Positions 1 through 9,802 of a stretch of DNA of 64,000 nucleotides are shown here, piece after piece. The stretch's first letter is position 1. Each line of letters starts with the position of its first letter. Position numbers and translations under genes: made by a program. The notes beneath the pieces were generated by a model, which did not search any database, was not told the DNA's origin, and was given only the letters and a program-made list of their open reading frames with translations. The stretch is from an uncultured Mucispirillum sp. Lineage in GTDB: Bacteria > Chrysiogenota > Deferribacteres > Deferribacterales > Mucispirillaceae. The DNA lies in assembly GCA_944325215.1 (NCBI GenBank), contig CALUZC010000015.1:1-64000 (forward strand). Direction: 5' to 3'.

Positions 1-65
1 GGTATTCATAGAGCAGGATATGTAAAAATATAATCATAGAAAACTGAATTTACAGACTTTTTTTC

Positions 66-91
66 ACAGGCTCAAATGGCTTGAGCCCTGT
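66..91. repeat. Stem-loop at left edge
   Basis: An inverted repeat with a 7-bp perfect core (GGCTCAA, 5-nt loop, TTGAGCC) extends to about 10 bp on each side with one bulge. It lies downstream of the NERD pseudogene on the minus strand. It is not followed by a T-run on either strand (the T-run precedes it on plus), so it is not a standard intrinsic terminator. It may belong to the same repeated DNA as the element at 126-151. Confidence 0.4.
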
Positions 92-125
92 AAAATACAG
101 AACTCAAACCGTATAATTTTAAATC

Positions 126-151
126 TGTCCAAAAATTTGGGTTCGCCTCAA
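126..151. repeat. Dispersed repeat, copy 1 (half element)
   Basis: A 26-bp stretch beginning TGTCCAA and ending GGGTTCGCCTCAA matches 23 of 26 positions with the loop plus right arm of the hairpin at 41167-41211. Only the right half is present here; the DNA to the left does not form the matching left arm. Both copies lie just beyond the 3' end of a damaged gene, which suggests a small dispersed repeat of the genome. Its nature (REP-like, MITE remnant) cannot be decided from two copies. Confidence 0.5.
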
Positions 152-161
152 TATCCCCTTT

Positions 162-944
162 TTATATAAATTCTTCTCTTTTGTAGTTAGCAGTATATTT
201 GCATTTTGGATAATTAGAACAGCCATAAAATTTACTATTATCTTTTTTGTTTATTCTTTCTACCAATAAGCCATTACAATAAGGGCATTTATCAATACTT
301 TCATATATATCTTGTATATGTTTATTTGCAGTATCAATTTTGTTATTTGTAGTTTTTAAACTTTCTATTATATTATTAATTATATCTATTTTTTTTCTGC
401 TGTATCCGCTGTCAAAAGCTGTTAAATTTCTTAATAAGTATTCTATATCACTATTATATATAATAAATATATTTTCATTATTTGATATTTTTATATTCTT
501 TAATTCACACTCATTACTAAACACAATAATAGAATAATAGGGTAAATTATTATATTTAGGTAATACATTTTTTAATGCTGCTATGTGAATATTATTTTGA
601 AATATAGGATTATAAAATTCATATTTATCCCCAGTTTTGAAAGTTTAATACCATTTATGAGAGTTTTCTCTGCCAAAAATCCAGCCAGAATAATTTTTGC
701 ATTCAAAAACATATATCCCACTTTTATCAACTGCAACAATATCTATTTCTGTTAATCTATTATTTTTTCTTTTAATATAAATATTTTGAAAAACATATGT
801 ATGTGGAATATATTTGATAATATTATGATAAATACTATTTTCAAAATAAGTACCTTTTTCATAGGGCTGGTTCGTTGTTACTTTTATATTAAAAATAAAT
901 ATAATAAATATAACAAATAATATTAAAACAATAATAAAATTCAT
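162..944 (-). pseudogene. NERD-domain / topoisomerase-type zinc-finger protein, broken by one nonsense codon
   Basis: Read from 944 down to 162 this is one frame of 260 codons interrupted only by a TAA at 647-645 (codon 100). The first 99 residues hold an N-terminal membrane segment (about 2-19) and the first part of a NERD nuclease-related domain (EIDIVAVDKSGIYVFECKNYSGWIFG). After the stop the same frame continues as TFKTGDKYEFYNPIFQN, the normal continuation of NERD domains, and ends in a C4 topoisomerase-type zinc finger (CPYC near 215, CSNYPKC near 242). A CAA or CAG to TAA change is the simplest explanation. A second start (GTG at 524) would give only the zinc-finger half. The gene sits divergently from the methyltransferase at 1156. 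Frame continuity is seen directly; loss of function is inferred. Confidence 0.8.
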
Positions 945-1155
945 AATCTCCTCTTAAAATATGAGCTTATAAAATAACAGCATCTATGTAAAGGGGAAAA
1001 TAGAGATTGAATTGAAAAAATAAGTATTATAATCATATTGATATATGTTTATAAATAGATATATATTTTTGCAATTTTCTATGTAAAATTTGATTTACTT
1101 TTAATATATGTTAATATATATTTATATAAAGAATGAAAATACATAGAGTATAGAG

Positions 1156-2019
1156 ATGAAGAAAACATATACACCATTACGATATCCTGGTGGTAAAAGT
1201 AAGCTTGCAAAACAATTTGAAATAATATGTAAATCAAATAATATAAACATGTATATAGAGCCTTACGCAGGTGGTTTTGGTATAGGGCTTTATTTGCTCT
1301 TAAATAATGTTGTTAAAAATGTTATTATAAATGATATTGACCCACTTATACATTCATTTTGGTACTCTATCTTAAAACATAAAAATGAATTTATTGATAT
1401 GATATATCATACTGATATTACAATGGATAACTGGTATAAGTATAAAGAAGTAATAACCAATTATAATAATTATGATAAACTTACAGTTGGTTTTGCAACA
1501 TTTTTTATGAATAGAACAAACCGTTCTGGTATAATAAAAGCAGGTGTTATTGGTGGTAAAAGCCAAAACGGTAATTATAAATTAGATGCAAGATTTAAAA
1601 AAGATGAATTAATAGAAAAAATAGAGCGTATAAGTAAATATAAAAAGTATATTAAGCTTTATAATAAAGATGCATTAAAATTAATAAGCAACATAAAAAA
1701 TAAACTTGATAGTCATTCTCTAATATATTTTGACCCACCATATTATTTTAATGCAAATACACTATATAATAATTTTTATAAACCAGAAGACCATAAAAAA
1801 ATAGGTAAATTTATACAAAAACTAGAATATCCTTGGATAGTTACTTATGATGATGTAAAAGAAATATCAGATATATACAGTAGTTCTAAGCAATTTAGTT
1901 ATACATTAAATTACAGTATATCTAAATATAATAATAAAGGCAGCGAACTGCTGATATATAATGATATTGATATTGATAAAGCAATTTTTAATAATTTGTT
2001 GGAGTTATCATGTATATAA
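1156..2019 (+). CDS. D12-class DNA adenine (N6) methyltransferase, Dam-like
   Basis: This 287-residue protein begins with PLRYPGGKSKL, the N-terminal signature of Dam/D12-class adenine methyltransferases. It has the AdoMet-binding motif EPYAGGFGIG at 35-44 and the catalytic DPPYY at 193-197. FFMNRTNRSGI near 117-126 is also typical of the class. Such enzymes methylate adenine in short targets; GATC is common but the site here cannot be read from sequence. Its stop codon overlaps the start of the ATPase/TOPRIM gene at 2010, so the two are probably translated together. It is not part of the hsd operon, which runs on the other strand. It could be a solitary regulatory methylase, but the coupling to a nuclease-like partner favours a defence or modification role. 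Confidence 0.88.
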   Translation: MKKTYTPLRYPGGKSKLAKQFEIICKSNNINMYIEPYAGGFGIGLYLLLNNVVKNVIINDIDPLIHSFWYSILKHKNEFIDMIYHTDITMDNWYKYKEVITNYNNYDKLTVGFATFFMNRTNRSGIIKAGVIGGKSQNGNYKLDARFKKDELIEKIERISKYKKYIKLYNKDALKLISNIKNKLDSHSLIYFDPPYYFNANTLYNNFYKPEDHKKIGKFIQKLEYPWIVTYDDVKEISDIYSSSKQFSYTLNYSISKYNNKGSELLIYNDIDIDKAIFNNLLELSCI

Positions 2020-3671
2020 ACCAATTAGAAATTTATAATTTCAGAGCATTTTCAGGTAAAAAGCAAGAGCAAGATGAAAATGGTAATATAGTTGAGAAAG
2101 ATATTCGTTATAAATTTAATTTTGTTAAAGGCTTAAATTGTATAGCAGGGCATAATGGTATAGGAAAATCGACAATATTAGCTATGCTAGGCAACTGTGG
2201 AGAACTTAAAAAAGGTATTGCAACTCATTTAAATGGTAGCCAGTTTCGTGGAGATTATAAAGATATAATTAAAGGTAAACCTGCCCATGATCCAAAAGGA
2301 AAAGTATGTACTTTACATTTCTCTGAGTTACCTTCATATTATAATTATTCTGAAACATATGTTGAAAGACTTGAATTTAGAGCTACTTTTCAAGATAATA
2401 ATACTAGATATAGATTAATTCCAGTACAAAATGAACATAGGATAACAGAAGGTAAACTTAGATGGCCAGTTTATTATATGGGTTTATCAAGATTATATCC
2501 AATAGGTGAATCTTCAGCTGTTTCAGATACCATTTTGCCAAAAGATATAACAAATGAAATAAAAGATATATATAGTAAAATTATTCCATCTAAATATGAC
2601 TATAAAACTGTGTCCAAAGTTAATATTAGTGAAACAAATAAAAAACAGGGGGTTGGAGTTTCTACTGAAAAATACAGTTATGAAGCAAATTCTGCAGGGC
2701 AGGATAATATAGGGCAAATATTACTTTCTGTCTTATCTTTTAAAAAGTTAAAAGAAAAACTTGGTAATGAATATTTTGGTGGTTTATTATTAATTGATGA
2801 AATAGATGCATCTTTACATCCTGCTGCTCAACTAAAATTGTTAGACTATCTTTATAACCAATCTCAAGAATTATCTCTGCAAATTATTTTTACAAGCCAT
2901 AGTATAAATGTTATAGAGCACTTAATAATAATGAAAAATAATAAGTTAAATGTTGGTTTAGTATATATTGATACATTAAGGGGTAGTTTGAATATTAACT
3001 TTAATCCTACATTAAATTATGTTTATAATAATTTAACAGAAAGCTATAATAACCTAAATTTTTATGAAAAAATTTTATTATTATCAGAAGATGATGTTGG
3101 TCGTGATTTTTTACAGAAAATACTTGAATATAAACAATGTCCTAATATATCAAGATTGAATATTGCAGATATTCATTTTGGTTGGGAACAGTTAGTTTCC
3201 TTGGTAAAACAAGATTTTAGTTCTTTTAGTAAAGTAATTATAGTTTTAGATCCAGATTTAAATAATAATACTTTATATAGTAAACTTAAACAGATGTTGA
3301 CTGGATCTAAATATAAGATTAATGAAAAAAATAGCAGTATATTTATATTGCCAGGTAATGATTATATAGAAAAAATAGTATGGAAATGGTTTGAAAATGT
3401 AGAAGAAAATCATCCAATATTTTTCGATAGAAATTTTTCTGAAAATGGACTTGGAAAACAAAATATTATTAATAATGGACCATATTCAGGGCATTATAGT
3501 AGTTTTACTGATGATAAGAAAAAAATTAAAGAATGGTATAAGGATGTAAGGTATTATGCTAATATTGCCCTTAAACATATAATTCAAGAGTATGATGAAG
3601 CTGGTCAGTTAGATGAATTTTACAATAACTTTAACAATTTTTTAAATATGCTTATCCATAAAAGATTATAG
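2010..3671 (+). CDS. ABC-type ATPase with C-terminal TOPRIM-like domain (OLD/GajA-like)
   Basis: This 553-residue protein has an N-terminal LEIYNFRAF strand, Walker A GHNGIGKST at 47-55, Walker B LLLIDEIDASLHP near 257-269 and the switch histidine in TSHS near 293, as in SMC/OLD-type ATPases. The C-terminal part carries an acidic LLLSEDDVG near 356, then VIIVLDPD near 411-418, matching the spacing of a TOPRIM Glu and Asp-x-Asp metal site. Proteins with this order are OLD-family nucleases, including GajA of Gabija. The start has a good ribosome site (GGAG, 2001-2004) inside the methyltransferase gene, and the frames overlap by 10 bp. Its 3' end overlaps hsdS (opposite strand) by 6 bp. Nuclease activity is inferred; a regulatory ATPase without cleavage is possible. 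Confidence 0.8.
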   Translation: MYINQLEIYNFRAFSGKKQEQDENGNIVEKDIRYKFNFVKGLNCIAGHNGIGKSTILAMLGNCGELKKGIATHLNGSQFRGDYKDIIKGKPAHDPKGKVCTLHFSELPSYYNYSETYVERLEFRATFQDNNTRYRLIPVQNEHRITEGKLRWPVYYMGLSRLYPIGESSAVSDTILPKDITNEIKDIYSKIIPSKYDYKTVSKVNISETNKKQGVGVSTEKYSYEANSAGQDNIGQILLSVLSFKKLKEKLGNEYFGGLLLIDEIDASLHPAAQLKLLDYLYNQSQELSLQIIFTSHSINVIEHLIIMKNNKLNVGLVYIDTLRGSLNINFNPTLNYVYNNLTESYNNLNFYEKILLLSEDDVGRDFLQKILEYKQCPNISRLNIADIHFGWEQLVSLVKQDFSSFSKVIIVLDPDLNNNTLYSKLKQMLTGSKYKINEKNSSIFILPGNDYIEKIVWKWFENVEENHPIFFDRNFSENGLGKQNIINNGPYSGHYSSFTDDKKKIKEWYKDVRYYANIALKHIIQEYDEAGQLDEFYNNFNNFLNMLIHKRL

Positions 3672-5141
3672 AATATAGTCTTTTAATTTATTGCAATAGG
3701 TTAATAGTTCATCAACTTTTTTAATAATTCTTTCTTGTTCTTTAAGTGGTGGAAGTGGGATTGGAAAACATTTGATTGTGTCTAATGAAATATTATCATT
3801 AGTTGATAGTTTTGCTTTTTGAATAATATTTTGTATTAAATTTGATAATATGACATAATGTATATACTGTTCATTTATTGTCCTAATTTTTATTGTTGCA
3901 ACACGTTGATTTGTTACCATTGGCTCGGTTACATCTGCTATCAATAAGCTTTTACCAACAGTTCCACCAGTCATACATATAATTATATTGTATTTATTAA
4001 GCATATATTCATTAAGTTTATCAAAATATTCGTATCTAACTATATTTTTATTTATTAGTCCATTTTCATTGAAATCAGATATTCGTATAACTCTAATGCC
4101 ATGATTTTTGAATAATCCACTTTTAAAAGCATATCCACCATTTATTGTAGCAACTTCCCCTAGTCTAACCCATTTCCAGTTTTCAGGTATATTATATGGT
4201 ATATCATCATCAGTAATAGATGGCAGTGGTTTTTCTTTTTTTATTTTGCCTTGTTTTATTAAGTTTTCTTTTTCTGCTATTATTTTTTTATAAAGTATGC
4301 TTGCAGGTTCATCGTAAATATCTTGATTAACTAATTTACCTTCTACTGCATATTGCAAAATAGATTTTGGAAGATTTTCCATAAAATTTTTATCTAATGC
4401 TAATAATTTTTCTTCTTCCTGTTCTAATTTATCACATAAACCCATAAGTTCATCAATTTTTTTAACAATCCTTTCCTGCTCTTTAAGTGGTGGAAGTGGG
4501 AAAATAATATGTTTTAGTTTTTCAGAAGATACTTCAATAACTTTCATTCCCTTTGCAATCTTATTTTTTTGTAGTTGAAAACAATTTGAGTTAAATAAAT
4601 ATATTAAATATAATGGATTTATCCAATGTTTTATTATTGCAGTATGTCCACCAGTCACTATTTGATAATTACCTAACCATGCAATGCTTTTGCATACATC
4701 ATTAATATTTTCACTTGTAATTACCATGATAATATCAGTATAATCAACTGTTTTTAATTTATATGCAACTTGTTCTGATGTATATGATAAAGTAGTATGA
4801 GTTGAATATTTATAATATTTATGTATTTGTCCATAATGTATGCATGGAATACCACTATCAGTGAAATCGTTTTTGGTTAATCCATTTCCTCGTTTTATCT
4901 CGCACACTTCCCCCAGTCTGACCCATTTCCAGTTTTCAGGTATATTATATGGTATGTCATCATTAGTAATAGGTGGCAGTGGTTTTTCTTTTTTTATTTT
5001 GCCTTGTTTTATTAAGTTTTCTTTTTCTGCTATTATTTTTTCATAAAGTATGCTTGCAGGCTCATCCTGATTATCTTGCTGAACTAATTTTCCTTCTACT
5101 GCATACTGTAAAATTGCTTTTCTTAAATCTGCTGCTTTCAT
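3666..5141 (-). CDS. hsdS: Type I restriction-modification specificity subunit HsdS
   Basis: This 491-residue protein has two target-recognition halves, each opened by a nearly identical stretch that includes AVEGKL, NIPENWKWVRLGEV and a lysine-rich linker. Each half ends in PLPPLKEQERI, the usual start of the conserved helix. It selects the DNA target for the HsdM/HsdR complex. The two linkers are encoded by direct repeats of about 212 bp (4154-4365 and 4907-5118), about 92 % identical by eye and offset by 753 bp, a multiple of three. The ATG at 5141 follows the hsdM TAA with no gap. No invertase or spare hsdS fragment is seen nearby. Confidence 0.95.
   Translation of the reverse strand: MKAADLRKAILQYAVEGKLVQQDNQDEPASILYEKIIAEKENLIKQGKIKKEKPLPPITNDDIPYNIPENWKWVRLGEVCEIKRGNGLTKNDFTDSGIPCIHYGQIHKYYKYSTHTTLSYTSEQVAYKLKTVDYTDIIMVITSENINDVCKSIAWLGNYQIVTGGHTAIIKHWINPLYLIYLFNSNCFQLQKNKIAKGMKVIEVSSEKLKHIIFPLPPLKEQERIVKKIDELMGLCDKLEQEEEKLLALDKNFMENLPKSILQYAVEGKLVNQDIYDEPASILYKKIIAEKENLIKQGKIKKEKPLPSITDDDIPYNIPENWKWVRLGEVATINGGYAFKSGLFKNHGIRVIRISDFNENGLINKNIVRYEYFDKLNEYMLNKYNIIICMTGGTVGKSLLIADVTEPMVTNQRVATIKIRTINEQYIHYVILSNLIQNIIQKAKLSTNDNISLDTIKCFPIPLPPLKEQERIIKKVDELLTYCNKLKDYIL
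4154..5118 (-). repeat. Pair of ~212-bp direct repeats inside hsdS
   Basis: 4154-4365 and 4907-5118 align without gaps with about 17 differences, and include a core of over 100 bp with very few changes. They encode the conserved linkers in front of each target-recognition domain. Recombination between them would remove exactly 251 codons in frame and leave a half-length, single-domain HsdS. Confidence 0.9.
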
Positions 5142-6578
5142 TTATACATCTCTTTTCATAACTTCTTCTATTGTATTAAGCAGGTTATTAATATTTTCAG
5201 TTATTTCCTGCCTTTCTAATTTATAATTTTCCATAAATTCAAAAGGGTTTAAAATTTCTTCTTCCTCATGTGGAAAGCCGCAGAAATCAAGGTTATAACT
5301 ATTTGCAATTATTTCATCTATACTTATAAGGCTTGATACTTCGCTTATCTCTCTATTATTCCACCACTCACGCACAGGGTCAAAGTGAATATCAAGCATA
5401 GGGCGTGTTTTAGAAAAATGTTTATAGCCTTCTGGCATTTCAAGCCTGTAATACCATATATTTTCAGTTTTTTTGCCTTTTTCAAAAAATAAAAGGTTTG
5501 TATTAATATTAGTATATGGTGCAAATACATCATTAGGAAGTCTTATAATTGTATGCAGGTTACATTCTTCTAGTAGTTTCTTTTTAATATTTGTTTTTAC
5601 ATTACCACCGAATAAAAAGCCATCAGGCAACACTATTCCACATCTGCCATTCTCTTTTAACAAGTGCATAATATGCACCATAAATAAATCTGCTGTTTCT
5701 TTAGAACGCACATCACTAGGCACAGAGTTTGTTACAGCGTTTTCTTCTGCACCACCAAAAGGTGGATTTGTAACAATAATATCTACAAAATCATTTTCCC
5801 CATAGTCTGCTACTGGTTTTCTTAAAGTATTATCGTTTACTATATTTGGTACATCTATATTATGTAGTATTAAATTTGTAACGCATAATATATGAGGGTA
5901 GGGCTTTTTTTCTATACCTTTAATATTTGATTGTAAAAGCTTATAATCTTCCTGCGTATTAAGTGTATATCTATCAATTACACTTGTTAAAAAACCACCT
6001 GTACCACATGCAGGGTCTAATACTTTTTCATTGATTTGTGGGTTTATCATTTCCACAATAAATTTTGTAACAGGTCTTGGGGTATAAAACTCACCAGATT
6101 TACCTGCACTTTGTAAGTCTTTAAGCATGGTTTCATATATATCATTAAATAAATGAAAATCTGGCATGGAAGCAAAATCTAACTCTTGGTTTAATTTATT
6201 TATTACCTGCCTTAAAAGTGTGCCAGATTTCATGTAATTTATAACATCATTAATAGTTGTTTTTAAAAGCCATAATCTTTTTGTATTATCTGTTGAAATA
6301 TCAAGAGATTTAATATCATCAAACATTTGCTCTATAAACTTTAAAAGTGCATCGCCTGTAATACCTTCATCCTGAGCTGCCCAGTTACGCCATTGATACT
6401 TTTCTGGCATAACTGATTTATAATCATCTTCTAAAAGTTCCCATTCCTGCTCTTTATAATCAAAAGCTTTTAGAAATAAAAGCCATGCAATTTGCCCTAT
6501 ATATTGAGCATCACCGTTTATTCCTTCATCCATTCTCATTATATCTTTTAATGCTTTTGTTAAGCCTGATATTGCCAT
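5142..6578 (-). CDS. hsdM: Type I restriction-modification methyltransferase subunit HsdM
   Basis: This 478-residue protein has an N-terminal helical HsdM_N domain, the AdoMet motif DPACGTGGFL at 188-197 and the catalytic NPPF at 271-274, giving N6-adenine methylation. It works with HsdS for modification and with HsdR for restriction. It lies between hsdR (9-bp gap, ribosome site GGGGAAAG) and hsdS (no gap) in an R-M-S operon on the minus strand. Length and motif order are normal for the family and no lesion is visible. Confidence 0.96.
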   Translation of the reverse strand: MAISGLTKALKDIMRMDEGINGDAQYIGQIAWLLFLKAFDYKEQEWELLEDDYKSVMPEKYQWRNWAAQDEGITGDALLKFIEQMFDDIKSLDISTDNTKRLWLLKTTINDVINYMKSGTLLRQVINKLNQELDFASMPDFHLFNDIYETMLKDLQSAGKSGEFYTPRPVTKFIVEMINPQINEKVLDPACGTGGFLTSVIDRYTLNTQEDYKLLQSNIKGIEKKPYPHILCVTNLILHNIDVPNIVNDNTLRKPVADYGENDFVDIIVTNPPFGGAEENAVTNSVPSDVRSKETADLFMVHIMHLLKENGRCGIVLPDGFLFGGNVKTNIKKKLLEECNLHTIIRLPNDVFAPYTNINTNLLFFEKGKKTENIWYYRLEMPEGYKHFSKTRPMLDIHFDPVREWWNNREISEVSSLISIDEIIANSYNLDFCGFPHEEEEILNPFEFMENYKLERQEITENINNLLNTIEEVMKRDV

Positions 6579-6587
6579 TCTTTCCCC

Positions 6588-8942
6588 TTATGCTGCATAA
6601 ATTTCATTTTCTAATTCTTTTATTATATTTTCAAAATTTTTTCTACCCTTAAATATATTATTAATTATATACATTGGGTTGCCTAATTTATTTACAGGCT
6701 CTAATTTTAATATATCTATGGTTTCTATGTTTTGAATATCAGTTTCAGCATATTTTTCAAGCAGTGCATTTATTACTTCCTGCACCTTTACTCCATATTT
6801 TGCAAAATAATTGCGTTTTTTTACATTTTCTATCCGTTCTCTTTTTGTAAGCGGTGGCTTATCATAAGCTATGTGGCACAGCATATCAAATGGGTCTAAA
6901 TCTTTTTTAGTATTGGCTTTTAATTCTTCCATAAATATGCCTGCTTTTTCCATTTCTGCAATTATTGCAGATTTCTTTTCTGCACTGTTCCAAGCCTGCA
7001 AGAAATTATCAAGAGTAGCATATTTATTTTTAATGTTTTTTCTTGTATAATCCTTAAATGATTCTGTTATAAGCTTGCCGTTATAGTCTAAATACTGCAC
7101 TTTATCTTTTAATATAGAAACTTCCACATTATCAACATAGTATTTAGTCTGCTTTGTTTTAGGCTCATCTGGTGTAACAGTATCATCTTTATTATCTGAA
7201 ACTACATATATATTTTCATCATTCTCATTATTATTATTATCATTACTTCCTTTAGTAATATCATATTCATCACTTTGTAATGGTTCGCCGTCAAAATCTG
7301 GGTCTGCAAAATGCCTTGTTACATTTCTAAAATCTATTATTGTAAAATAAAGCTTGTTTTTTTCTTCCACAAGCCTTGTACCCCTGCCTATAATCTGTTT
7401 AAATTCAATAATACTTTCAATATTGCTATCTATTACTATAACTTCCACAGTTTTTGTATCAACCCCAGTTGATAAAAGTTTTGAAGTTGTTACTAAAACA
7501 GGATATGCAGAATTTTTATTACAAAAATTTTCTATTTGGCTTTTTCCTTCTTCGTTATCACTTGTTATCTGCATAACATATTTATCATTAATTTTAACCA
7601 TATCAGCATTTTCATTAACAAGGGCTTGCCTCATTCTGCCTGCATGGTCTTGGTCTATACAGAAAAATATTGTCTTTGCCATTTGCTTATTATTTCTTTT
7701 TAAATAGTCTGTTACATATTTTGCCACAAGCTCTGTTCGTTTTTCTAAAACTAAATTTCTATCAAAATCTCTTGTATTATACTCCCTATCTTCTATAATA
7801 TTACCATATTTATCAGTTTGGTTTATGGTAGGGCGAAAGCCTTCTACATCTTTATCTATTATTACACGCACTACTTTATATGGGGCTAAAAATCCGTCTT
7901 CTATTCCCTGCTTTAAAGAGTAGGTATATACAGGCTCACCAAAATAAGATATATTTGATACTTCTTTATTTTCTTTTGGGGTGGCAGTTAAGCCAATTTG
8001 TGTGGCATTATGAAAATATTCTAGCACTTCACGCCATAAACTTTCATCTTTTGCACTGCCCCTGTGGCACTCATCAACTATTATTAAATCAAAAAAATCT
8101 GGGCTAAATTGTGTAAATATATTTTTAGTTTCATCTTTACTTGTCATACTTTGGTATAATGCTAAATATATTTCATAAGATTTATCCACTTTTCTATTTT
8201 TAACCAAAGTCATTTTATCATTAAATGGAGAAAAATCACCTGTATATGTTTGGTCTCGCAGTGCTTCTCTATCTGCCAAAAATAGTATGCGTTTTTTAAT
8301 GCCCGCTTTCCAAAGCCGCCATGCAATTTGAAAGGCAACATAAGTTTTGCCAGTGCCTGTTGCCATTACTAAAAAAACACGGTTATTTCCATTGATTATA
8401 GCATTATATACACTATTAATTGCATTTAATTGGTAATATCTTGGAATTTTGCCATTATCTGTATAATATGAAGAACTTATTTGCTTTTCTTTATTATCAT
8501 CTATATTGTTATATCTTTTATATGTTTCCCACAGAGCAGCAGGGGAGGGAAAATCATCAAGGCTTATTTCTTTTTCTAATCTATCATTTTCATCATGGTA
8601 TTTATTATGGAAAATAAAGCCATCACCATTAGATGTGAATACAAATGGAATATTAAGCATATTTGCATAATTTAATGCCTGCTGCATACCGTCTAACATA
8701 TTATGTTTATTGTCTTTGGCTTCAATTACTGCTAGCGGAGTATGAAAATTATAAAATAATACATAATCTGCTCTTTTTATAGTGTTTGTATCACGTCTGC
8801 ATGAATTATGCCTTGCAATAACTCTACCATCAGTTAATTTGTATTCTTCTCTAATTTGGTGGTGCTGCCAGCCTGATTTTAAGAGAGCAGGTGTAATATA
8901 TCTTGTTCGAATTTCCTGTTCTGTAAGTGCTTTTTTATCCAT
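6588..8942 (-). CDS. hsdR: Type I restriction endonuclease/translocase subunit HsdR (EcoEI-like)
   Basis: This 784-residue protein begins with a PD-(D/E)xK nuclease domain (D59, E74-A-K76). A superfamily-2 helicase motor follows, with Walker A ATGTGKT at 194-200, DECH at 290-293, GLTATP at 317-322 and motif VI QIIGRGTRL near 530. The C-terminal region resembles the EcoEI-R_C domain of type IB-like HsdR. It translocates and cuts DNA lacking the host methyl mark. The ATG at 8942 is preceded by AAGGTG, and hsdM follows after 9 bp. The residues near 570-610 form an acidic, asparagine-rich linker. The gene appears intact. Confidence 0.95.
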   Translation of the reverse strand: MDKKALTEQEIRTRYITPALLKSGWQHHQIREEYKLTDGRVIARHNSCRRDTNTIKRADYVLFYNFHTPLAVIEAKDNKHNMLDGMQQALNYANMLNIPFVFTSNGDGFIFHNKYHDENDRLEKEISLDDFPSPAALWETYKRYNNIDDNKEKQISSSYYTDNGKIPRYYQLNAINSVYNAIINGNNRVFLVMATGTGKTYVAFQIAWRLWKAGIKKRILFLADREALRDQTYTGDFSPFNDKMTLVKNRKVDKSYEIYLALYQSMTSKDETKNIFTQFSPDFFDLIIVDECHRGSAKDESLWREVLEYFHNATQIGLTATPKENKEVSNISYFGEPVYTYSLKQGIEDGFLAPYKVVRVIIDKDVEGFRPTINQTDKYGNIIEDREYNTRDFDRNLVLEKRTELVAKYVTDYLKRNNKQMAKTIFFCIDQDHAGRMRQALVNENADMVKINDKYVMQITSDNEEGKSQIENFCNKNSAYPVLVTTSKLLSTGVDTKTVEVIVIDSNIESIIEFKQIIGRGTRLVEEKNKLYFTIIDFRNVTRHFADPDFDGEPLQSDEYDITKGSNDNNNNENDENIYVVSDNKDDTVTPDEPKTKQTKYYVDNVEVSILKDKVQYLDYNGKLITESFKDYTRKNIKNKYATLDNFLQAWNSAEKKSAIIAEMEKAGIFMEELKANTKKDLDPFDMLCHIAYDKPPLTKRERIENVKKRNYFAKYGVKVQEVINALLEKYAETDIQNIETIDILKLEPVNKLGNPMYIINNIFKGRKNFENIIKELENEIYAA

Positions 8943-9038
8943 AATTTCACCTTAACAGCAGTCTACAAAAAAATAGATTTTATGTAAAGGTAAAATGTAT
9001 CATCTAAAAATATTAGTTGTATGTAACTCTTATACTTG

Positions 9039-9155
9039 CACTTTTTACAAGGAAAAAATGTATAATACTACACTTTTTACAGTGAATAAGTATAAGATTT
9101 AACACTTTTTACAAGGAAAAAGTGTATATACATCACACTTTATGCAGTGAAAAAA
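9039..9155. repeat. Four tandem 32-33 bp direct repeats upstream of hsdR
   Basis: Units start at 9039, 9071, 9103 and 9136. Each opens with CACTTTTTAC or a close variant (CACTTTATGC in the last), continues with a GGAAAAA/GTGAATAA block and ends in an AT-rich TATA segment. Units 1 and 3 contain an imperfect dyad, CACTTTTT then AAAAAGTG (exact in unit 3). The 32-bp period is close to three helical turns, so all copies face the same side of the helix. The array lies 97-213 bp upstream of the hsdR start. No spacer-repeat alternation of a CRISPR is present. Operator sites for a regulator are a plausible reading. Confidence 0.75.
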
Positions 9156-9238
9156 TAAAGAAAAGTAAATTTTATTGTTTTAAATTTAAGCAGTGAGAAT
9201 ATGATTTATAATGTATTATTAAGAGGTTAAAAATACAG

Positions 9239-9802
9239 CTATCTATTTTCTTTTCTATATTCCCATGGGGCTTGTGGGTTATCTTCTGCCCAAAGACCAA
9301 TATGGTTATATTTTGCTTTAAGCTGAGCATATTCATTACGAATAGAGTTACTATATTGAAAATAGCTCCATGCACAGCCCTGTTTTATCATTTCATAATT
9401 GATATTTACATTATCTGCATATATGGTGGCAACAGTTCTACCGTATTTATCTGTATCTTCTACAGCATATGAAATATTTTTATTTTTTAATAAATCTACT
9501 AAACAATCCCTTGATTTTTTGCCATAAGCCTGTTTTATTTCTGGGGCATCAATACCATAAAGTCTTATTTTTACTTTTTTACCATCTTCATTAATAACAT
9601 TTATAGTATCACCATCATGAATGGAATTAATCTTTTTTACATCGTGCCAGGAAGATATAAACGATTTATACCCATCAACATTTAATCTAAGATAATCATT
9701 GATAATATCATTTAAAATAGTCTCTTTAAGTGCAACAATACACACAATAATTAAAAACAGTGTTCTTGCAGATTTTGGTAGTTTCCTGTATCTTCTTGCC
9801 AT
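9239..9802 (-). CDS. Membrane-anchored staphylococcal-nuclease-like protein
   Basis: This 187-residue protein has one hydrophobic segment at about 13-26 (signal anchor) and a full SNase domain. The catalytic set is visible: R80 in KIRLYGIDAPE, D85, E88, and R122 in DKYGRT. The domain ends with GLWAEDNPQAPWEYR, the usual C-terminal pattern of Ca2+-dependent thermonucleases. It probably degrades nucleic acid at the membrane or in the periplasm. It lies beyond the hsd operon in the same direction but separated by the repeat array, so is likely its own unit. Its start has no strong ribosome site, so the exact N-terminus is less certain. Confidence 0.9.
   Translation of the reverse strand: MARRYRKLPKSARTLFLIIVCIVALKETILNDIINDYLRLNVDGYKSFISSWHDVKKINSIHDGDTINVINEDGKKVKIRLYGIDAPEIKQAYGKKSRDCLVDLLKNKNISYAVEDTDKYGRTVATIYADNVNINYEMIKQGCAWSYFQYSNSIRNEYAQLKAKYNHIGLWAEDNPQAPWEYRKENR

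Follow-up and report, generated by a model that had tools for sequence, protein, structure and literature searches.

An OLD-family ATPase encoded beside a PD-Lambda-5_B methyltransferase in Mucispirillum, a candidate restriction-modification-like defense unit

In a defense island of an uncultured Mucispirillum sp., a gene for a predicted N6-adenine DNA methyltransferase overlaps a gene for an OLD-family ABC-ATPase that ends in a TOPRIM-like domain. The pair is most likely a restriction-modification-like (R-M-like) defense: the methyltransferase would mark self, and the effector would be the OLD protein, which would attack unmarked DNA or abort the infection. We put the probability that this is an R-M-like anti-phage unit of the PD-Lambda-5 kind, with a methyl mark controlling the OLD effector, at roughly 50%. 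If the mark does control the OLD nuclease, then two large groups of defense systems would be joined (R-M, and OLD/Gabija/PARIS), and the self/non-self discrimination of OLD proteins, which is an open question, could be put to a direct genetic test in E. coli. The pair would also be easy to overlook. No model in PADLOC 2023 recognizes the OLD partner beyond partial matches, mostly to its ATPase half, and because of the lack of a fitting model, loci with the pair would read as a lone PD-Lambda-5_B or as a type II methylase. Here, "the window" is the whole 64,000-nucleotide stretch of DNA that we analyzed (GCA_944325215.1, contig CALUZC010000015.1, positions 1 to 64,000), and coordinates refer to it (Table 1).

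The two proteins and their neighbors

Table 1. Features of the pair and its surroundings, in window coordinates.
Feature	Position	Strand	Details
D12-class N6-adenine DNA methyltransferase, PD-Lambda-5_B family (predicted self-marking subunit)	1156..2019	+	287 aa; PF02086, PADLOC
OLD-family ABC-ATPase with C-terminal TOPRIM-like domain (putative effector)	2010..3671	+	553 aa; AAA_15/AAA_21, AlphaFold2, catalytic residues
ABC-ATPase half, residues 1-305	2010..2924	+	alignment invariants
C-terminal TOPRIM-like domain, residues 344-553	3039..3668	+	AlphaFold2, Foldseek, invariant residues
10-bp gene overlap	2010..2019	+	GGAG ribosome site at about 2000-2003, within the methyltransferase gene
EcoAI-type type I R-M	3666..8942	-	hsdS 3666-5141, hsdM 5142-6578, hsdR 6588-8942
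NERD + Zn-ribbon gene, two pieces (162-524, 645-944)	162..944	-	island neighbor

The preliminary description of this DNA had reported two overlapping genes, with the ribosome site of the second inside the first, between a broken NERD gene and a type I system. All of this was confirmed: the GGAG lies 6 nt upstream of the ATG of the OLD gene, the NERD/Zn-ribbon pieces are on the left, and hsdS-hsdM-hsdR is on the right. The hsd system is convergent with the pair, and hsdS overlaps the OLD gene by 6 bp. It is an island neighbor, and we do not claim it as a member of the unit. The NERD/Zn-ribbon gene is intact in a relative (G005), where it is a single ORF of 255 aa (L019:2905-3672). The block with the methyltransferase and OLD genes has a GC content of 24%, versus 31% across the remaining window. 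Base 1 of the window coincides with a contig end (G000:C15:1), and the sequence to its left is outside our view. A small thermonuclease-like gene (9239-9802, minus strand) adjoins hsdR, and similar ORFs are at the same place in four relatives (G001, G003, G004, and G006).

The methyltransferase belongs to the D12 family (Pfam PF02086, E = 1.2e-16) and matches PADLOC's model for PD-Lambda-5_B (PDLC04018) over residues 1-270 with E = 1.2e-110. The EPYAGGFGIG and DPPYY motifs are both present, as previously reported. Across 15 diverse members of the family, DPPY and a NRTNRSG...G..GG..Q signature are invariant. With its intact D12 motifs, the protein is a predicted site-specific methylase of a type II-like kind. 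No classical restriction endonuclease gene adjoins it, and the OLD-TOPRIM protein is the only candidate.

In the OLD protein, Pfam identifies an ABC-ATPase domain of the AAA_15/AAA_21 type and assigns no domain to the C-terminus. The ATPase half contains Walker A (GHNGIGKST, residues ~46-54), the signature motif (SAGQDN, 228-233), Walker B (LLLIDEID, 259-264), and an H-loop (SHS, 297). The TOPRIM-like domain has E360 and D361, D414-P-D416, LP at 447-448, and E454. An alignment of 45 homologues, whose identity to the window protein ranges from 21% to 66%, shows no variation at E360, D361, D414, or D416. Among 144 full-length homologues, D263, E264, H297, E360, D361, D414, and D416 are invariant (144/144), and K53 is kept in 142, the exceptions being two proteins that are cut short by a contig edge. 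Because they are invariant across 144 homologues, these motifs are not there by chance. More broadly, the TOPRIM motifs of the homologues read xxED, [LFVP]D[GAP]D or near, and LPx...[PILSV][ED]. The Walker A, the Walker B, and the C-terminal Glu followed by Asp-x-Asp that the preliminary description listed are thus all there.

That description saw in the C-terminal residues a fit to a TOPRIM nuclease. The full-length AlphaFold2 model (from 45 sequences) has a pLDDT of 89, and its best match in the PDB is the OLD nuclease of T. scotoductus (6p74, E = 1.2e-11); GajA and the OLD protein of retron Eco8 are also among the best matches. The global TM score is only ~0.3, which we attribute to a different placement of the domains. 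When the C-terminal domain was modeled alone (pLDDT 95), crystal structures of OLD C-terminal domains (6nk8 chains A and B, 6njw, 6njv, and 6njx) were within the top 12 Foldseek hits, with TM scores of 0.42-0.47 over ~230 columns and E values of 0.1-0.3. At the sequence level, neither Pfam nor the PDB sequences gave a match to the isolated domain. In comparisons with two OLD proteins by hhalign, the signal was confined to the ATPase half, and a search for further classical OLDs among the related loci found none. Overall, the C-terminal domain is probably a diverged OLD TOPRIM domain, with strong evidence from its residues and architecture and moderate evidence for its fold. The proposed TOPRIM assignment stands on the catalytic residues, the architecture, and the match to 6p74, and is weaker for the isolated domain, given its TM scores to the OLD crystals.

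Linkage and exchange of partners

To see if the two genes are associated in other genomes, we relied on two scans. Across GTDB, with one genome per species, we found 80 loci with the ATPase, and in 53 of these, a D12 methyltransferase of the PD-Lambda-5_B type is encoded on the same strand no more than 300 bp away (downstream in 35 loci and upstream in 18). The methyltransferase is farther off in another 9 loci, and at L030 it extends past the edge of the locus. This gives 63 linked loci out of 80, or 63 of 75 evaluable loci if five that are cut at contig ends are left out. In an independent scan of viral contigs, the methyltransferase was present at 64 of 69 non-redundant loci (64 of 66 without three that are cut at a contig end). 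The linkage that the preliminary description counted on is real, and on these counts we reject chance co-location in a defense island. The pair occurs in many phyla, in both orders and in any orientation, including convergent. On the ATPase tree, the label "methyltransferase downstream" changes 12 times, and at least 9 of the changes are forced by well-supported branches. Since gene order changed several times, the linkage is not merely inherited order.

The pair is carried by prophages, plasmids, and an integrative conjugative element (ICE). Of 5,426 complete E. coli genomes, 85 (1.6%) hold at least 80% of the version from a Citrobacter phage. We examined three E. coli loci; all have both ATPase and methyltransferase, two adjoin a phage-type integrase, and one is in an ICE. 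In one lineage (L062:3743-5596 and L138:3569-5590), the motifs of the OLD gene are intact but no PD-Lambda-5_B methyltransferase is nearby. The L062 genome's one D12 match is elsewhere in the genome and is perhaps the host's Dam. A broken ATPase accompanies an intact methyltransferase in about four loci (L004, L040, L099, and L180), versus one or two of the reverse (L082; L062/L138), but these are too few, in a sample biased by the use of ATPases as bait, to count as evidence for self-protection.

PD-Lambda-5 is a prophage-borne defense of E. coli that came out of a functional selection (Vassallo et al. 2022, PMC9519451). Its protection is broad: it affected plaquing of 9 of the 10 phages tested, in an mrr-deleted host, and its authors call it a compact system that resembles both R-M and abortive infection (PMC9519451). 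Our pair is like PD-Lambda-5 in its methyltransferase family, in being a two-gene unit, and in its carriage by prophages, and the methyltransferases of the two are interleaved on one tree. It differs in that PD-Lambda-5_A, a protein of ~450 aa with no Pfam match, is absent and the OLD ATPase-TOPRIM protein is in its place. No PD-Lambda-5_A model is among the ATPase's best 25 PADLOC matches (for genuine PD-Lambda-5_A proteins, the best models give 144-630 bits), and the methyltransferase's neighbors are the OLD ATPase, the NERD pieces, and hsdS.

The pairing of PD-Lambda-5_A with the methyltransferase can be seen in records from Kosakonia, Vibrio maritimus, Paracoccus, Pseudomonas, and Marinobacter. 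When we started from the methyltransferase instead, 41 unique viral loci included 25 with PD-Lambda-5_A, 11 with OLD, one with both, and four with another neighbor or an edge. On the methyltransferase tree, five rows paired with PD-Lambda-5_A lie among the OLD-paired ones, which needs five changes of partner, at least three of them forced. Vibrio phage ValB1MD-2, with an OLD partner, and V. maritimus, with PD-Lambda-5_A, have methyltransferases that are 86% identical. A three-gene form (OLD, a PD-Lambda-5_A-like gene, and the methyltransferase) is present at about eight loci, where the middle gene was assigned by its position and shared sequence features. Because the partner types interleave and co-occur, the methyltransferase is a module with exchangeable effectors, so a methyltransferase from a validated defense family is found with at least two unrelated effectors. 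The distances between ATPases and between methyltransferases agree weakly but non-randomly (Mantel rho = 0.19; 2 of 2000 permutations were as high).

Two other arrangements involve the same families. In PADLOC's PDLC04607 (PDC-M38A, 715 positions), the N-terminal part matches PD-Lambda-5_A and the C-terminal part matches OLD ATPases, which suggests natural fusions of the two alternative partners. At L030:5575-9401, L064:5704-9218, and L006:4001-8443, a PD-Lambda-5_B methyltransferase or an OLD ATPase is accompanied by genes for HerA-type helicases and for a ~460-aa protein with no Pfam match. These HerA-associated loci are a further, multi-gene version.

The pair had been put forward as an undescribed unit and as a restriction-like system of a new kind. 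The first idea holds in part: the OLD partner fits no PADLOC 2023 model, but the methyltransferase belongs to PD-Lambda-5_B, which makes the pair a relative of PD-Lambda-5 with an exchanged partner. The second needs toning down, as the methyltransferase is half of a defense system that has been shown experimentally, and the pair is thus not entirely new in kind. We found no paper on the exact pair of D12 methyltransferase and OLD-TOPRIM protein, in a search that did not cover the 2020 survey of ABC-ATPases (10.1093/nar/gkaa726). The idea of OLD-ABC/TOPRIM effectors in R-M-like loci is already published; the pair looks like a PD-Lambda-5 variant whose second protein has been replaced.

The pair also resembles other systems with OLD proteins. 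Like GajA of Gabija and the class 1 OLDs (T. scotoductus OLD, 6p74, and P2 Old), the window protein has an ABC-ATPase followed by a TOPRIM domain in one chain, with E...DxD. The differences are a DNA methyltransferase for a partner and a C-terminal domain that is not recognizable by sequence. That the pair is not Gabija, as first stated, was borne out: no UvrD/PcrA-like GajB helicase is among the neighbors, and matches to GajA models are partial (at most 62 bits). PARIS likewise combines an OLD-ABC ATPase with a TOPRIM nuclease, and there is a conceptual tie to guarding against anti-restriction. Here, there is no AriB gene, a methyltransferase is present, and the matches to AriA or AriAB models are weak and partial (34.7-54 bits); for AriAB (34.7 bits), the best stretch is residues 1-63 only. 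The ATPase's best PADLOC model is for type I-B retrons (such as Eco8, with its ATPase-Toprim effector; E = 3.9e-20, residues 177-467). A Pfam scan of seven ORFs at the locus revealed no reverse transcriptase, and Rfam had no match in 1-9500. With partners missing and model matches only partial, we rejected membership in Gabija, PARIS, and the type I-B retrons. Finally, OLD-ABC proteins in R-M-like loci, as far as the 2020 survey is summarized in PMC12839542, illustrate the same general concept, namely that OLD-ABC nucleases are recruited to modification systems.

Variation at the Mucispirillum site and in other R-M loci

At the site next to hsdS, four Mucispirillum species have the same methyltransferase (86-92% amino acid identity). 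The ATPases vary far more: identity to the window protein is 66% in G003, which has the same gene order, 31% in G004, and 28% in G005. In G004 and G005, the different ATPase is convergent to the methyltransferase, and in G004 it is demonstrably between the methyltransferase and hsdS. G006 has other AAA-type genes at the hsd-adjacent site. G001 (L190) seems to be without the block; with 72 bp at two contig ends as its basis, the reading of an empty site there is only suggestive. The hsd-adjacent site is a defense hotspot in Mucispirillum (same site in L017, L018, L019, and L192).

The TOPRIM half varies the most. Between the ATPases of the window genome (G000) and G003, residues 201-305 are 91% identical and the rest, to the end, is ~45% identical; their methyltransferases and HsdM proteins are 91-92% identical. 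At the ATPase/TOPRIM junction, identity falls from 83% to 45% between the window's 2010-3671 and L020:4001-5659, and from 75% to 37% between L018:2619-4295 and L019:157-1863. These two drops are the most extreme of ~10,700 pairs of homologues. The TOPRIM half might have been swapped by recombination or might be diverging very fast; either would fit a part that faces the phage.

Twelve evaluable relatives of the OLD protein are without a PD-Lambda-5_B-type methyltransferase, and 5 of the 12 sit in other R-M loci. Three are beside a C5 methyltransferase (identified by Pfam in L036 and L056 and by sequence similarity in L060), and two are within type I hsd operons (L053 and L059). L056 also has an NgoPII-type restriction endonuclease, which makes it an R-M system to which an OLD-TOPRIM protein is added. 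Because OLD homologues are found in C5 and hsd loci, this OLD clade is tied to DNA modification more broadly. OLD-ABC/TOPRIM proteins in R-M-like loci have been discussed in general terms before, in the account that PMC12839542 gives with citation of the 2020 survey.

How the pair might work

In the mechanism that we favor, the D12 methyltransferase would write N6-methyladenine at a short motif on the host's DNA, as expected from its family and intact motifs. The OLD protein would fill PD-Lambda-5_A's place as the effector: with ATP, its ABC-ATPase heads would dimerize, and they would control a metal-dependent TOPRIM nuclease. It would be inactive on marked DNA. If phage DNA is unmarked, or if the phage blocks the methyltransferase, then the OLD protein would cut nucleic acid and the infection would stop. 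For both types of partner, the controlling signal might be the methyl mark or the working state of the methyltransferase. Control by the mark accounts for the alternation with PD-Lambda-5_A and for the fact that the methyltransferase is hardly ever found alone. Also in its favor are the PD-Lambda-5_B assignment, the linkage that persists through changes of gene order, the OLD architecture, fold, and invariant residues, the homologues in other R-M loci, and the carriage by prophages, plasmids, and an ICE. Evidence against it includes the lineage with an OLD gene and no methyltransferase (L062/L138) as well as the weak Foldseek E values and lack of sequence matches for the domain. Also, ATPases that are only ~25-30% identical beside a near-identical methyltransferase are not what one would expect if the ATPase strictly read a single motif. 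A bolder proposal, which we hold tentatively, is a class of R-M whose only restriction effector is an OLD-type ABC-ATPase/TOPRIM protein. The methyl mark of an interchangeable PD-Lambda-5_B methyltransferase would license this effector, and the effector and its TOPRIM half would be swapped under a constant mark.

Alternatively, the OLD protein might be a guard that reads no DNA marks and instead senses phage anti-restriction activity or failure of the methyltransferase; its TOPRIM domain would then cleave tRNA or another host target, in the manner of AriB. We consider this somewhat unlikely, although it ranks next, and much of the data would fit an abortive role like that of PARIS. In PARIS, AriA senses the anti-restriction protein Ocr and AriB cuts tRNA, and OLD-ABC proteins have been proposed as backup suicidal effectors around BREX and R-M-like systems (PMC12839542, PMC12409363). 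Another OLD-ABC pair, WonAB, works by abortive infection (PMC12137116). A guard explains two observations better than control by the mark does: the homologues inside complete type I and C5/NgoPII R-M loci, where a restriction enzyme is already present and would make an OLD protein superfluous as the main nuclease, and the quick turnover of the ATPase and TOPRIM next to a constant methyltransferase, which suits a phage-facing sensor. However, most pairs have just the methyltransferase and no restriction enzyme to guard, and the methyltransferase alternates with PD-Lambda-5_A in the same position.

It is less plausible that the methyltransferase restrains a toxic OLD nuclease by direct protein contact, with methylation being secondary. 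The tight translational coupling in the window and the weak agreement of the ATPase and methyltransferase distances would fit, but the methyltransferase motifs are strictly conserved, gene orientation is free, and a conserved interface would hardly allow such divergent ATPases beside methyltransferases that are 86-92% identical. We strongly doubt the reading in which the C-terminal domain has no nuclease function and the OLD protein is a DNA-scanning ATPase which assists the methyltransferase. Although the domain lacks a sequence-level TOPRIM match and has a Foldseek E value of ~0.1 on its own, E360, D361, D414, and D416 never vary, the full-length model matches TsOLD and GajA, and PADLOC's model for the retron ATPase-Toprim protein aligns through residue 467. 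The least probable explanation is that two independent genes share an island and have no joint function. The Mucispirillum island does mix several defense genes, but that does not account for linkage over many phyla and in both orders (63/75 and 64/66 evaluable loci), which inherited gene order does not explain either.
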